From Geminocystis sp. M7585_C2015_104 (GTDB lineage Bacteria; Cyanobacteriota; Cyanobacteriia; Cyanobacteriales; Cyanobacteriaceae), in contig DVEF01000092.1 in NCBI GenBank assembly GCA_015295805.1, forward strand, positions 1 through 49,324: a DNA stretch of 49,324 nt, written 5' to 3'. The translations under genes were made by a program, and so were the position numbers. Under the pieces are notes generated by a model. The model did not search any database and was not told the DNA's origin. It was given only the letters and a program-made list of their open reading frames with translations. Positions 43,762 to 49,324 of the stretch are shown here, piece by piece; position 1 is the stretch's first letter; every line of letters starts with the position of its first letter.

Positions 43762-44784
43762 TTATAAAACATTTTCCAATTTGACCCCCTTAACCCCCTT
43801 GGTGAAAACAGTGCCAGTCTTTTGTTCCTTAAAACGAGCCTGTACCTTGTCATACACGGCATCGGGTAGGTGTACATATCCTGCCTTATTAATTAGGGGC
43901 TTATGTTCCTTCTGCAGGTAGAACTCGACAAAGGCCTTCACTTCGGGACGATTTAGGGACTCTTTTTTAACATATATAAACAGTGGGCGAGATAGAGGTT
44001 GATAGGTACCCTCCTCTACAGTCGTAACACTAGGTTCAATACATCCCTGGCCATTTTTGGGATCACCATCATCTATGGCCACCGGTTTGACCTTGTCTAT
44101 ATTCTCCTCTAGATAGGCCAGTCCGAAGTAACCCAATCCCCCCTTGTCATTGGCCACACCCTGTACCAATACATTATCATCCTCACTGGCAGTATAATCC
44201 CCTCGACCCTGTCCCGATTTGCCCACAACGGCCTCGGTGAAGAAGTCAAAAGTGCCAGAGTCAGTCCCTGGCCCATACAAGTTCAAAGGTTCGTCGGGAA
44301 ACTTAGCATTTACCTGTTTCCACTTAGTTATTTTCCCTTGGGCTTCAGGAGCCCAAATCTTCTTCAACTCCTCTACAGTAAGACAGCTAGCCCAATCATT
44401 TTGAGGATTCACCACCACAGAAATGGCGTCATAGGCTATGGGCAATTCCACAAATTCTATCCCCGCCTCTTGACACTTCTGCATCTCCTCCGGCTTGATG
44501 GGACGAGAGGCATTAGAAATGTCCGTCTCTCCCGCACAGAACTTCTTAAACCCACCGCCTGTCCCGGATACGCCGATGGAAATTTGTACTTGGCCTTGTT
44601 CTTTTTGAAACTCCTCTGCCATCGCCTCGGTGATGGGGAAAACAGTGCTAGAACCATCAATGACTATGTTGCCACTCAATGAGCCTCCTCCCCCTCCCTG
44701 TTGTCCTGTACCCCCACCACAGGCAGTCAAATTCACCAGGGCTAGCACTGCCGCCATGGTTGTGGCAGTTTTTAACCTTTTCAT
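43762..44784 (-). CDS. pstS: Phosphate-binding lipoprotein PstS (SphX-type)
   Basis: Periplasmic phosphate receptor of the Pst transporter. 340 residues. A lipoprotein signal with lipobox LTAC (Cys22) is followed by a glycine-rich linker. The binding fold starts [50 protein letters not shown] and [20 protein letters not shown] supply the phosphate-contacting Ser/Thr/Gly/Asp residues. Extra C-terminal residues ([19 protein letters not shown]) end the protein. It is read away from the permease genes, from a promoter carrying a Pho box (44862-44891). glnA lies downstream, 137 nt away, with its own promoter. Confidence 0.94.
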
Positions 44785-44836
44785 AGTTTCTTCTCCCTGT
44801 CAATTTCGCCACGATTTAATTATTTTCCCCAGCTAG

Positions 44837-44891
44837 AATATACCTTTGTTTAGTTATTTTTTATTTAAGAAAAGTTTAAGATTAGATTAAA
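44837..44891 (-). promoter_or_regulatory. Pho box (SphR/PhoB-type) and -10 of pstS
   Basis: Minus strand, three octamers with 3-nt spacers: TTTAATCT (44884-44891), CTTAAACT (44873-44880), CTTAAATA (44862-44869), exact 11-nt periodicity. This matches the cyanobacterial Pho box, tandem CTTAACCT-like octamers spaced by 3. TATATT (44837-44842) follows after 19 nt as a possible -10. The site lies in the 186-nt divergent interval and may also control the rightward operon, whose own side has a TTGACA at 44911-44916. Confidence 0.82.
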
Positions 44892-44970
44892 TTTTAGAAC
44901 CAGAAAAAAGTTGACATATCATATGTGTTAGCGATGACTAATTATATTATATTGGGAGTAGAAAACAACC

Positions 44971-46116
44971 ATGGCTAGGGAAGTGGACAGCCAGGTACAC
45001 ATAGGGAAAATTGGAGAGTTACCCCTGGACAACTACAGGGTGGACATCAACACCATTACCGAGATGGTGGAAGAAACCCTGTTGGAGAATCCTAAACTGT
45101 CCGGGGTGTTTGTGACTAAAAAAAACGAGGTAGTGGCCACCATTTCTCGTCGGGTTTTCTTTGAAAAAATGAGTAGGGAATATGCCCGGGATATTTACAG
45201 CAAAAGACCAATAAAAGTCCTAGTGAGAACACTGGACTATAAACCATTAACTATACCAGCTGACACGGAAATTAACGAAGCAGTGAAACTGGCACTAAGA
45301 CGCGCCCCCGAGTATGTTTATGAACCAGTTGTGGTCACAAAAGAAGATGAGTATATGGGCATGTTGGAATTGAGTGTTTTAATCCTGGCAGAGGCAAATA
45401 TTTTTTCAGAAATTAACCAAATGCTTGTCAAACAGGGGGATGCACTAAAAAACTACGCGGAGAGACTAGAAAAGGAAAAAAAAGTAGTCAGCGAGTACGC
45501 CAAGGAGTTGGAAAACCAGAGGGAACAGCTGAAAAAAACTAACAAACTGCTAGAAAAACAGGCAAAACAATTAGAAGAACAACAAAAGGACCTGGAGCTC
45601 AGAAATGAGGAAATATCCAGGCTAAACAAGCGCTTTTCAGAAGTAGGAGTTTTGCTGTCAGAGGAGGGGAAAAAAACCCTTGATTCTCTGGAAGAAAGTG
45701 TGGAAAAGGTAGTGGCTTTAAATCAACAAATATCCCTAGCATCTTCCGGATTCAAGTACAAGTTCAGAATGATAAACCAGGCGACAGAATTGGTCTCACA
45801 GATAAGTAAAAGGGTTGAATTCTTGTCTCAGAAAGTGGGCAGAATGGTATCTGGTATATCATCAGAGGAAAAGAAGAGACTGCCCTTCGATATGGTAACA
45901 CAGGAGATAGAAAAATTAAGTGTGCAAATCAACCAGGCAAGTAGTACTATCAATAATGTGGCTGAAGAGCTAAGAAGAGAAATTAACAACCTATCAGGCA
46001 CCGCCGAAGAAAACCAGAAAATAGTAAAAAACCTGGCACGTAACTTCCAAAGCATACAGACTTCTTTAGCAAAACTAACAGCTTTGATAGAGGGGAGAGA
46101 AGAGAAAAATGATTAG
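44971..46116 (+). CDS. CBS-like / coiled-coil / chemoreceptor-like signalling protein in the pst operon
   Basis: 381 residues, no signal peptide or membrane helix, so cytosolic. Residues about 15-145 read as a pair of CBS-like repeats (SGVFVTKKNEVVATISRR; YEPVVVTKEDEYMGMLEL), with FFEKMSREYARDIYSKRPI between them, a pattern I associate with CBS segments of GGDEF-type proteins. Residues 148-222 are a continuous coiled coil (many K/E/Q/L heptads). Residues about 262-375 resemble a chemoreceptor signalling hairpin: INQATELVSQISKRVEFLSQ, then MVTQEIEKLSVQINQASSTI. The tip residues that normally contact CheA/CheW are not conserved. Its end overlaps pstCA by 8 nt. The function is unknown; a phosphate-signalling role is inferred only from position. 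Confidence 0.75.
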   Translation: MAREVDSQVHIGKIGELPLDNYRVDINTITEMVEETLLENPKLSGVFVTKKNEVVATISRRVFFEKMSREYARDIYSKRPIKVLVRTLDYKPLTIPADTEINEAVKLALRRAPEYVYEPVVVTKEDEYMGMLELSVLILAEANIFSEINQMLVKQGDALKNYAERLEKEKKVVSEYAKELENQREQLKKTNKLLEKQAKQLEEQQKDLELRNEEISRLNKRFSEVGVLLSEEGKKTLDSLEESVEKVVALNQQISLASSGFKYKFRMINQATELVSQISKRVEFLSQKVGRMVSGISSEEKKRLPFDMVTQEIEKLSVQINQASSTINNVAEELRREINNLSGTAEENQKIVKNLARNFQSIQTSLAKLTALIEGREEKND

Positions 46117-47995
46117 TAGAACTTTGTCCCTAAGAGCAAAGGGGCTCAAAAAACCTTGGTTGGAGATAATATTCACAATTGTTGGGGTTGTGCCGATTTT
46201 AATTGTGGTGGGAATTTTCCTGGTTTTCCTACTTCAAACCTACGAGTTTTTCCAAAAAGTATCCCCCACAGAATTTTTTACCAGCAGACAATGGACCCCC
46301 AACTATGTCAATGCCAGATTCGGCGTGATTGTGCTACTGTCGGGGACAGTACTAACTACCATTATTGCCTTATTGTTTGCAACCCCAGTGGGCATCCTAG
46401 CAGCAGTTTACTTGTCAGAATATGCCCCCTCCCATCTGCGTCGTCCCCTCAAGGTGGCCTTGGAATCCCTGGGGGGTATACCGGCGGTAGTTTACGGTTA
46501 CTTTGCCCTCCTGGTGTTGACTCCCTTTGTCAAAAACACATTTATCCCCTTCATCTCCAGTTTTAACGCCCTCAGTGCAGGAATCTGTATCGGTATATTT
46601 GTAACACCGGTGATCGCCTCCTTGACAGAAGACGCCCTCGATTCCCTCCCCCAACAGTTGCGCAATTCCGGCTATGCCCTGGCCTTGACCAAACCAGAAG
46701 TGATTTTCCGCATCCTTCTCCCCTCTATATTCCCCCGCATAATAGCCGCAGTCTCCCTGGCAGCTTCCCTGGCCATTGGAGAAACCATGATCGCGGCAAT
46801 AGCCGCCGGACAAAGGCCAAATCTAACCTTTAATCCCCTCGTGCCCGTTGAAACCATGACCAGTTTTATTGTTAGGATTAGTCTGGGCACGGTAGAATAT
46901 GATTCCCTATTGTTCAAGACAATTTTCACTCTAGGGTTTATTCTTTTTCTAGCAACCCTGATTCTCAACAGTATAAGCTACTGGCTGCAGAATTGGGATT
47001 TGAGCAACATCAGCAGAAAACGCCATAAAAGCGAGAGTAAAAGGGCAACCACTGAGGAAAAATATAGGATAACCCTAGAGAAAAAAGATACTATTGTCGA
47101 CAGGGAACAATTCCAGAAAAGTAACCTGAAAAGCAGGAAGGTATGGGAGAAAATACTAGGAGTAGTGGGTTTTATTTGTGCTAGTTTGGGAGTAGTTTTT
47201 ATAACAATATTGTTTCTATCCCTAGTAAGTGATGGGATTAGTCACCTGAACTGGAAATTCCTTACTAGTTTCCCCTCCCGTGACCCGAAAGAGTCGGGAA
47301 TTCTGTCACCTCTGGTGGGCAGTACATGGCTATTTATACTCACTTTGCTGATGGTGACACCACTGGGGGTAGGTAGTGCCATCTACTTGGAAGAGTACCA
47401 GAAGAAGGATTGGTTTGCCCGCTTTCTGGACATTTGTATTGCCAATCTAGCCGCAATACCCACTATCCTCTACGGCTTATTGGGATTGGAATTGTTTGTA
47501 CATTTGGGTAGGCCCATCACAGGAGGCAATAGTATCCTAAGTGGCGCCTTGGTATTAACCATGATTGCCCTGCCCACAGTGATAGTAACCAGCAGGAATG
47601 CCCTAAAAAGTGTAGATCCAGTCTTGCGACAAAGTGGCTACGCGCTGGGTATGACAAAAGAGCAGGTGATAATTAGAATCCTATTACCCAACGCCCTTCC
47701 TGGCATCATAACAGGAGTTTTGATTGCCCAAGGGAGGGCCTTGGCAGAAACGGCAGCCCTAATTGGTGTGGGCGCCAGGGCCATAGTTCGTTTCTTGCCC
47801 CCCTTGTCGTTAGATGGATTACGAAGTAACTACTCAAGCCTGCCAGTACAAATTTTCTACTGGTTACAGAGTCCAAAAGCAGAAGTTCAATCTTTAGCCG
47901 CAGCCGCCATTATAGTTTTGGTTATCATTCTCCTGGCCATAAATGTTTTATCTGTGTTGGTACGGGAGTTTTTAAAACCAAAAACTAGTACATAG
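46109..47995 (+). CDS. Fused phosphate ABC transporter permease PstC-PstA
   Basis: 628 residues comprising two complete permeases in one continuous frame. The PstC half (about 1-297) has a first helix about 20-44, a periplasmic loop and the cytosolic EAA loop PQQLRNSGYALALTKPEVIFRILLP (181-205). The PstA half (about 346-620) has its EAA loop DPVLRQSGYALGMTKEQVIIRILLP (503-527). Between them is a charged cytosolic linker (about 298-345, KRHKSESKRATTEEKYR). PstC and PstA are normally separate genes. The ATG at 46109 overlaps the upstream gene by 8 nt, so translation is coupled. pstB follows 12 nt later. Confidence 0.9.
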   Translation: MISRTLSLRAKGLKKPWLEIIFTIVGVVPILIVVGIFLVFLLQTYEFFQKVSPTEFFTSRQWTPNYVNARFGVIVLLSGTVLTTIIALLFATPVGILAAVYLSEYAPSHLRRPLKVALESLGGIPAVVYGYFALLVLTPFVKNTFIPFISSFNALSAGICIGIFVTPVIASLTEDALDSLPQQLRNSGYALALTKPEVIFRILLPSIFPRIIAAVSLAASLAIGETMIAAIAAGQRPNLTFNPLVPVETMTSFIVRISLGTVEYDSLLFKTIFTLGFILFLATLILNSISYWLQNWDLSNISRKRHKSESKRATTEEKYRITLEKKDTIVDREQFQKSNLKSRKVWEKILGVVGFICASLGVVFITILFLSLVSDGISHLNWKFLTSFPSRDPKESGILSPLVGSTWLFILTLLMVTPLGVGSAIYLEEYQKKDWFARFLDICIANLAAIPTILYGLLGLELFVHLGRPITGGNSILSGALVLTMIALPTVIVTSRNALKSVDPVLRQSGYALGMTKEQVIIRILLPNALPGIITGVLIAQGRALAETAALIGVGARAIVRFLPPLSLDGLRSNYSSLPVQIFYWLQSPKAEVQSLAAAAIIVLVIILLAINVLSVLVREFLKPKTST

Positions 47996-48007
47996 AGGGA
48001 GGTGTCT

Positions 48008-48808
48008 ATGGAAGACAATGTAATCATCAGACTGGAAAATGTGTCTGTTACCTACTACAAACAAGTACTTCTGGCCGGGGTATTCATAGACTTTAAGGCG
48101 CATCAAATCACGGGTATTATAGGACGTTCCGGCTGTGGCAAGACCACCCTACTACGTTGTTTGAATCGCCTAAATGACCTGATAGAGGGAATGAGGGTAA
48201 AGGGAAAAATATTATTCAGGGGGGAAGACATATATCGGCCAGGTGTGGACCTAGTGGAATTGCGTAGTCGGATAGGAATGGTGTTTCAGCGTCCGGCGCC
48301 ATTCCCCATCTCCATCCGCGACAACATCGCCTTCCCCCTAAGGGCAAACGGCTATCCTCGCAAACAAATCCCGGAAATGGTAGAATTGGCCCTCACCAAG
48401 GTGGGTCTGTGGGATGAGGTAAAATACCGTCTTAACCAAAATGCCCTAACCCTTTCCGGCGGACAACAGCAGCGTTTGTGTATCGCTAGAGCCATCGCCA
48501 TCCAACCAGAGGTATTACTATTGGATGAACCCTGTTCGGCATTAGACCCAGTCTCCACCCTAGAAATTGAGAAACTGCTTCTAAAACTAAAAGAAGACTA
48601 TACCATCATCATGACCAGTCACGACCTAAGACAGGTTGCCCGTATCTGTGACGAAGTGGTGTATATGGACGTAGAAGAGAATGCCAGGGGCGGTAAGACT
48701 GGTTATGTAGTTGAGCATAATACAGTAGAAAAAATATTCCTGAACCCCGACAGTAGGAAGACTTACGAGTACACCACTGCCGGATTAACGGGTATAACCA
48801 AAAGATAA
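48008..48808 (+). CDS. pstB: Phosphate ABC transporter ATP-binding protein PstB
   Basis: About 266 residues. Walker A GRSGCGKTT (39-47), Q-loop in GMVFQRPAPFPISIRDNI (the FP..SI segment is typical of PstB), signature LSGGQQQRLCIARA, Walker B EVLLLDEP with SALDP, and the switch histidine in MTSHDL. It energises the fused PstCA permease. The ATG at 48008 has GGGAGG 5 nt upstream and is preferred over a GTG at 48002. The usual next gene phoU is absent; thrS lies convergent downstream. Confidence 0.95.
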   Translation: MEDNVIIRLENVSVTYYKQVLLAGVFIDFKAHQITGIIGRSGCGKTTLLRCLNRLNDLIEGMRVKGKILFRGEDIYRPGVDLVELRSRIGMVFQRPAPFPISIRDNIAFPLRANGYPRKQIPEMVELALTKVGLWDEVKYRLNQNALTLSGGQQQRLCIARAIAIQPEVLLLDEPCSALDPVSTLEIEKLLLKLKEDYTIIMTSHDLRQVARICDEVVYMDVEENARGGKTGYVVEHNTVEKIFLNPDSRKTYEYTTAGLTGITKR

Positions 48809-48865
48809 GGAGGCGGGCCTATCCCCCCCGGGGTTGGCAATCACAAATCCATACGGCGGGTCCTA

Positions 48866-49324
48866 TTAAAAGTCGCCGTAGGACTGGATGGCATTGAGTA
48901 ATCGTTGTATTACCTGTTCCAGGGGAAGAGCCCCAAGCTCCCCCTGGGCCCGGGTACGTATACTGAGGGTGTTATTGTCCTGTTCCTTTGCCCCTACCAC
49001 CGCCATAACGGGGATTTTTTCCTTTTCAGCGGTGCGGATCATCTTAGCCAGTCTGTCGCCACTGGCGTCCACCTCGGCGCGGATTCCCAGACTAAGCATC
49101 TTCTGGCAAACCTGTTGAGCATAGGGACGAAACTCATCAGAGACGGGCAGGAGGCGGACTTGGACAGGGGCTAGCCAGATGGGGAAATCCCCCGCATATT
49201 CCTCAATGAGTATACCAATAAGACGCTCTAAAGAGCCAAAGGGGGCACGGTGTATCATTACAGGGCGTTGACGACTGCCGTCTGGGGCGGTGTATTCCAA
49301 GTCGAAACGTTCTGGTAGGTTGTA
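48866..49324 (-). CDS. thrS: Threonyl-tRNA synthetase, C-terminal part (runs off right edge)
   Basis: The minus-strand frame is open to the window edge and reads YNLPERFDLEYTAPDGSRQRPVMIHRAP in pieces, then FGSLERLIGILIEEYAGDFPIWLAPVQ. This is motif 3 of a class II synthetase (GSLERLIGILIE) followed by the anticodon-binding domain (PVQVRLLPVSDEF and RAEVDASGDRLAKMIRTAEKEKIP). The conserved histidine MIHRAPFGS fits ThrRS. About 152 codons are inside; the catalytic core and editing region lie outside. The stop is at 48866-48868. Confidence 0.95.
   Translation of the reverse strand, partial: YNLPERFDLEYTAPDGSRQRPVMIHRAPFGSLERLIGILIEEYAGDFPIWLAPVQVRLLPVSDEFRPYAQQVCQKMLSLGIRAEVDASGDRLAKMIRTAEKEKIPVMAVVGAKEQDNNTLSIRTRAQGELGALPLEQVIQRLLNAIQSYGDF

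Follow-up and report, generated by a model that had tools for sequence, protein, structure and literature searches.

A CBS-like protein with a chemoreceptor-derived hairpin encoded in a cyanobacterial phosphate-transport operon is a candidate component of phosphate control

PhoU is a cytosolic protein whose role is tied to Pst transport and to control of the Pho regulon. CBS-regulated ABC importers also exist, for example OpuA, and in methyl-accepting chemotaxis proteins (MCPs) the conserved tip of the signalling domain serves CheA/CheW contact and receptor packing. For cyanobacteria, a 2026 paper describes the precise mechanism of phosphate sensing as not fully elucidated (PMC13226834). Here, we analyzed a gene with the working label cbsp (44971..46116, + strand), the first gene of a phosphate-transport operon on contig DVEF01000092.1 of Geminocystis sp. 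M7585_C2015_104; the whole 49,324-nucleotide stretch is referred to as the window. The gene has an ATG start and encodes a soluble protein of 381 aa, in which a CBS-like module is followed by a coiled coil and an MCP-like hairpin. Genomes, loci and families are given by our own handles (G, L and f numbers).

We propose, with middling confidence, that cbsp acts in the cytosol as a signalling protein of the Pho regulon, tuning phosphate import alongside SphS-SphR-PhoU and not standing in for PhoU. The domain make-up, the linkage to pst, the promoter motif and the purifying selection were computed directly. Since the gene is preceded by a phosphate-starvation switch and relatives keep it beside the same pump, cbsp probably takes part in phosphate control in a way not yet described. 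The modules are known ones, and their combination and setting appear not to have been described: the initial annotation knew of no such system, and full-text searches of an open-access library brought up no description of cbsp.

That annotation had reported a 381-codon gene overlapping a permease gene by 8 nt and followed by pstB, and both the description and the coordinates proved right (open reading frame 44971-46116, next frame from 46109). The gene is a genuine coding gene, with 83% identity to L003 and a dN/dS of about 0.06, indicating purifying selection. By profile search, PstC and PstA form a single 628-aa frame in the window, the fused permease gene pstCA (46109..47995, + strand; TIGR02138, E = 5e-107, and TIGR00974, E = 4e-103, both over cut-off). 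It is followed by the ATPase gene pstB (48002..48808, + strand; TIGR00972, E = 5e-96), which scores 321 bits and thus lies under the 343-bit cut-off of its model. Together they make up a PstCA-PstB transporter of the Pst type. The gene for the phosphate-binding protein, pstS (43762..44784, − strand; TIGR02136, E = 4e-99), is divergent from the cbsp operon. A scan of positions 44700-49000 for sigma-70 promoters and terminators gave counts no different from shuffles, and a tblastn search of plasmids returned no cbsp match at E ≤ 1e-5.

In the window's family, which comprises 15 genomes, the eight with a full-length cbsp are the same eight that have a fused PstCA, and the two genes are adjacent in 8/8. 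The remaining seven, two of them incomplete, hold neither gene in full; G390 has a weak partial cbsp match (E = 3e-5), and in G392 the permease match is broken by stops and was read as separate genes. The 8-nt overlap between the cbsp stop and the pstCA start (46109..46116, + strand, in the window) is present in seven of the eight genomes holding both, in G388 only when an in-frame ATG inside the longest frame is taken, and the overlap in G389 is longer. The retention of this overlap suggests that translation of the two genes might be coupled.

Adjacency to the fused PstCA recurs in three further families (f49, f8 and f45). In G400 (f49) and G471 (f8), cbsp is adjacent and divergent to pstCA, with pstS as its other neighbor in G400; in G396 (f45), it is divergent to a PstCA that is cut off by the contig end; and in G326 (f8), cbsp lies two genes from pstB. 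This last homologue (L044, 1983-3182) has a reading frame interrupted by an in-frame stop, and hence may be decaying or mis-assembled. Our order sample contained 388 genomes, 84 of which have a homologue at E ≤ 1e-25. The closest intact fused PstCA (E ≤ 1e-174) occurs in 14 genomes and a close homologue (E ≤ 1e-50) in 19, and 13 genomes have both; the two cut-offs were chosen after viewing the lists, and the counts, which follow the tree, are not independent. Both genes are present and far apart in G368 and G121. Quick trees of cbsp and PstCA concur on f8, f49 and f1 (the cbsp tree omits the interrupted L044 and L057, L058, L059, L062, L065 and L066, which are near duplicates and one distant row). 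This agreement fits one old association that was later kept, rearranged or lost. In the near-complete genomes G056, G388 and G389, where all first-look candidates were scored, the fused PstCA is the sole Pst-type permease match at E ≤ 1e-40.

The intergenic region shared by pstS and cbsp contains a Pho-box-like (SphR) site at 44862..44891 (− strand). It consists of three direct YTTAAYYW-like repeats with 3-nt spacers and agrees with 22 of the 24 positions of the triple-repeat Pho-box consensus given in PMC13226834 and PMC1906773. It is the sole site in the 49-kb window scoring 22 or more, and 0/200 dinucleotide shuffles reached its score; with this triple repeat upstream, cbsp is a probable member of the cyanobacterial Pho regulon. 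As a positive control, a Pho-box-like site (22/24) precedes the pstS of the second Pst operon of the same genome. For the eight family intergenic regions, shuffles matched the best score 0, 2, 0, 0, 83, 32, 6 and 9 times of 200, and the sites of G056 and G387 are not special by this test because shuffles often reach their scores. We also built a matrix from 22 published sites and scored promoters against 400 control promoters (empirical p). The controls exclude genes starting within 1.5 kb of a cbsp start and the listed pst genes, and the test omits L052 and the near duplicates L057, L058, L059, L062 and L065. The window site scored 21.2, above all 400 controls. Six of the eight family promoters reached p ≤ 0.02, six of nine pstS positive controls reached p ≤ 0.05, and 12 of 26 promoters of homologues outside the family did so (rank test, 1e-6), p values that are optimistic because relatives share ancestry. 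A site between divergent linked genes may serve pst and not cbsp. Among the controls themselves, the highest-scoring Pho-box-like site is in the pstCA/Raf1 intergenic region of G395 (L158, 10545-10922), where it may serve pstCA. The meaningful tie to the Pst transporter suggested by the initial annotation is thus upheld by adjacency in 8/8 family genomes and in three further families, and by Pho-box-like promoters.

When the window protein was compared with Pfam on its own, CBS matched residues 91-135, corresponding to the second CBS motif, at a sub-cut-off E of 6e-4, and MCPsignal matched residues 307-370 at E = 0.007 (16.7 bits against a 34.6-bit cut-off). Unrelated coiled-coil families matched, below threshold, between these two regions, and an SMC model of NCBIfam matched the protein at 2e-6. 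Because single-sequence matches were sub-threshold and coiled-coil families scored as high as MCPsignal, we built an alignment of 32 cbsp homologues, leaving out L044 (G326); the domain alignments behind the N-terminal and C-terminal profiles also omit L059. Profile matches delimit the CBS-like input module at residues 13-150 (45007..45420, + strand). Pfam CBS is matched by 13 of the 32 homologues at E ≤ 0.01 (best 2e-5), and the N-terminal profile has nine matches in the PDB at E ≤ 1, five to named CBS proteins and four to channels or exchangers of the CLC type, a group with CBS domains of its own. By hhalign, the N-terminus aligns with CBS proteins of its own genome at 74.5%, spanning the first motif only; the second is matched by Pfam below cut-off, and a pair of CBS motifs is putative. 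The sequence comparisons therefore support a CBS-like assignment moderately, given that the best PDB match has an E of 0.017 and the hhalign match spans one motif. The S/T-x-x-D pattern, which is nucleotide-related in CBS domains, is absent: the corresponding residues are SRRK in the family consensus and SRRV in the window, and the consensus of the genome's own CBS proteins reads SxxD/TxxD. An AlphaFold2 model of residues 9-155 was unusable (pLDDT 34). The CBS-like part seen in the initial annotation is moderately supported at family level, although the single-sequence match stays below cut-off and the pattern is missing.

The same module was found by blastp in nine chosen proteins, eight of which contain signalling domains and one of which is the module alone. 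It heads histidine kinases, GGDEF proteins, a GGDEF-EAL protein and a HAMP-PAS protein, and hence looks like an input module; a Pfam scan detected no CBS domain at E ≤ 0.01 in any of the nine. Cyanobacteria reuse the module widely as an input domain, as in L174 (G085), L169 (G008) and L175 (G131), and one stand-alone copy has 163 aa.

Downstream of this module, sequence and an AlphaFold2 helix define a coiled-coil linker (residues 151-212; 45421..45606, + strand), and PDB profile matches together with hhalign define a helical hairpin (residues 213-374; 45607..46092, + strand). The AlphaFold2 model, from a two-sequence alignment, has two long helices (125-293 and 306-374) and an unusable N-terminal part (pLDDT <50); a Foldseek search with the whole model was uninformative, giving 802 matches at E ≤ 10 and none at E ≤ 0.001. 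MCPsignal is matched by 16 of the 32 homologues at E ≤ 0.01 (best 2e-18), and a 31-sequence C-terminal profile matches solved MCPs in the PDB at 9e-17. The C-terminus aligns by hhalign with MCPs of the same genome at 97.9% with this profile and at 94.1% with a profile of the nine nearest sequences. Three crossed controls (the linker region, residues 141-230, or the N-terminus against MCPs, and the C-terminus against CBS) gave about 0.1%. Against the PDB, the nine-sequence profile reaches MCPs at 3e-4; a designed protein comes next (0.002), and syntaxins begin at 0.009. The match of the nearest group is weak by itself because these score just behind. Collectively, the profiles argue that the hairpin is homologous to the MCP signalling domain (PF00015).

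The canonical MCP tip is not kept. The genome's own MCPs read like EAARAGE-GRGFAVVA, a stretch from which the window protein differs at its hairpin turn (residues 294-305; 45850..45885, + strand). The pst-linked clade has lost the tip and has extra residues at the turn, as compared with five of the six own-genome MCP domains (the sixth locus, L106, was excluded by the filter). The chemoreceptor-like hairpin noted in the initial annotation therefore stands as a family-level homology, but with its tip lost and a single-sequence match below cut-off. The f27 homologues L052 and L053 have a more MCP-like tip and keep N, E and R in this stretch, and the protein family may therefore span working and retired chemoreceptor hairpins.

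Under phosphate starvation, SphR would induce cbsp together with the transporter. The CBS-like part might then bind a small intracellular ligand, with an adenine nucleotide or c-di-AMP as the first candidates, and the state of the ligand would pass via the coiled coil to the hairpin. The hairpin could dock on PstB or on the cytosolic face of PstCA and so set uptake activity, working in parallel with SphS-SphR-PhoU. We put forward more tentatively this fuller model of an undescribed Pst regulator, in which a starvation-induced CBS-like sensor drives an ex-chemotaxis hairpin and, acting beside PhoU, gates PstCA-PstB according to the nucleotide or energy state inside the cell. If true, a chemoreceptor hairpin has been converted to transport control. 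A conserved, probably Pho-regulated, sensor-like protein whose gene overlaps that of the permease would also offer a direct genetic handle on the internal control of Pst and on phosphate sensing.

Several results weigh against a role in tuning import. Among 386 genomes sampled from the phylum, 98 gave a cbsp match of some kind at E ≤ 0.001, many to the N-terminal module only. We fetched 33 stretches, 32 of which surround a homologue, and blastp with the window's Pst proteins found adjoining pst genes only in those of f1; in G326, pst is a few genes off, and in G014 an ABC ATPase 27% like PstB lies some 3 kb away. The idea that homologues always neighbor pst hence holds for 8/8 within the family, but most homologues whose surroundings were inspected lie elsewhere. 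At laxer cut-offs, the fused PstCA is unbroken in 32 genomes, half of which (16) have a homologue (E ≤ 1e-25), and G481 has a fused PstCA and no cbsp. Support for the CBS assignment is moderate, cbsp does not keep the S/T-x-x-D pattern found in CBS proteins of its own genome, and designed coiled coils are also matched by the 31-sequence hairpin profile, starting at 1e-7. Within the family, the promoters of G056 (p = 0.08) and G387 (0.05) miss 0.05, as do those of G080 (0.63), G576 (0.13), G400 (0.09), G280 (0.08) and G089 (0.07) outside it. A split along the tree, made after viewing the rows, separates nearer relatives (f14, f5, f49, f45, f8, f24 and f23; 12/17 at p ≤ 0.05, rank test 8e-10) from farther ones (f27, f4, f7, f22 and f29; 0/9, rank test 0.59). 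Lastly, close homologues exist without an intact fused PstCA in G131, G080, G014, G133 and G576, and action on this permease is hence not the only role of cbsp. This observation keeps alive a reading that we consider rather unlikely, namely that cbsp is a general nutrient or energy signalling protein, or a scaffold, of the Pho regulon with a target other than the transporter, pst adjacency reflecting co-expression only. It would agree with the Pho-box-like promoters that unlinked homologues often keep (9/13 of the nearer relatives unlinked to pst at p ≤ 0.05) and with an input module that heads kinases and GGDEF/EAL proteins. We nevertheless prefer tuning of transport because cbsp is repeatedly found next to a single permease clade and its gene overlaps that of the permease: adjacency in more than one arrangement suggests more than co-expression, and the strict family co-occurrence (eight with both, seven with neither) together with the 8-nt overlap also argues against a purely general role.

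The MCP ancestry of the C-terminus, six MCPsignal matches over cut-off in the genome, and the N, E and R kept by f27 members would suit a soluble chemoreceptor signalling into a CheA/CheW pathway, so that motility is directed according to phosphate or energy state. We regard this as improbable, since the pst-linked clade has lost the tip seen in the five own-genome MCP domains, has extra turn residues, and would thus be unlikely to couple to CheA. Replacement of PhoU, with cbsp reporting the transporter state to SphS, had been raised in the initial annotation from the lack of phoU in the window. That lack is confirmed, as a genome search with PF01895 at E ≤ 0.001 matched contig C20 only, and both proteins would be helical and cytosolic. 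On contig C20, however, phoU lies near genes for a histidine kinase and a response regulator, separated from the kinase gene by a creatininase-like gene of opposite strand, and we read this cluster as sphR-sphS-phoU. PhoU was found in 13 of the 15 family genomes, and the two misses are 63% and 67% complete, so that 13/13 good genomes have it. The expectation that genomes with cbsp might lack phoU failed as well, for all eight cbsp-bearing family genomes hold PhoU. We therefore reject cbsp as a PhoU substitute, leaving that role a very slim chance. Slimmer still is the chance that cbsp is an unrelated gene that happens to sit in the operon; many homologues do lie elsewhere, but this reading is already disfavored by linkage to pst in four families, by the way cbsp and pstCA are present or absent together within the family, and by Pho-box-like promoters.

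The genome's second Pst operon (G000:C65, locus L167, 5290-10040) has separate permease genes, in the order pstS, pstC, pstB and two pstA-like genes. Pfam found no CBS-like sensor among ten chosen genes at or near PstCA, beside an unlinked cbsp gene, or in the second Pst operon. These encode a UbiD decarboxylase, an alpha/beta hydrolase, Raf1, a glycosyl-hydrolase-like protein, a response regulator (near pstS in G469), two plastocyanin-type proteins, a phytase-like protein, a phosphodiester glycosidase and a glycosyltransferase. The phytase-like gene is close to pstB in G121 (L152, 12518-13651), its homologue in G326 lies between cbsp and pstB (L044, 3274-4413), and the phosphodiester glycosidase gene is downstream of an unlinked cbsp homologue in G576 (L162, 10318-12300).

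Compared with known systems, cbsp shares with PhoU/SphU, which acts in SphS-SphR-Pst control, a cytosolic nature and a tie to Pst transport and the Pho regulon, yet it has no PhoU domain match and PhoU itself is in the same genomes. HmpF (NF038350), a pilus taxis protein, matches residues 158-296 weakly (E = 2e-5, 23 bits against a cut-off of 200); this match falls in the helical coiled-coil part and far under the cut-off, and we rejected HmpF membership and do not treat the two as kin. The C-terminal hairpin is homologous by profile to the MCP signalling domain (PF00015), but the pst-linked clade has no canonical tip, and a CBS-like module stands where MCPs have their membrane receptor part. 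With CBS-domain proteins (PF00571) such as OpuA, cbsp shares a CBS-like module associated with an ABC importer; in contrast to OpuA-type systems, it is a separate soluble protein that is not fused to the ATPase, has no S/T-x-x-D, and scores weakly by profile. Finally, the same N-terminal module opens, by blastp, histidine kinases and GGDEF and EAL proteins of the CBS-like type in cyanobacteria, but their outputs are enzymatic, whereas cbsp ends in the hairpin derived from MCPs.

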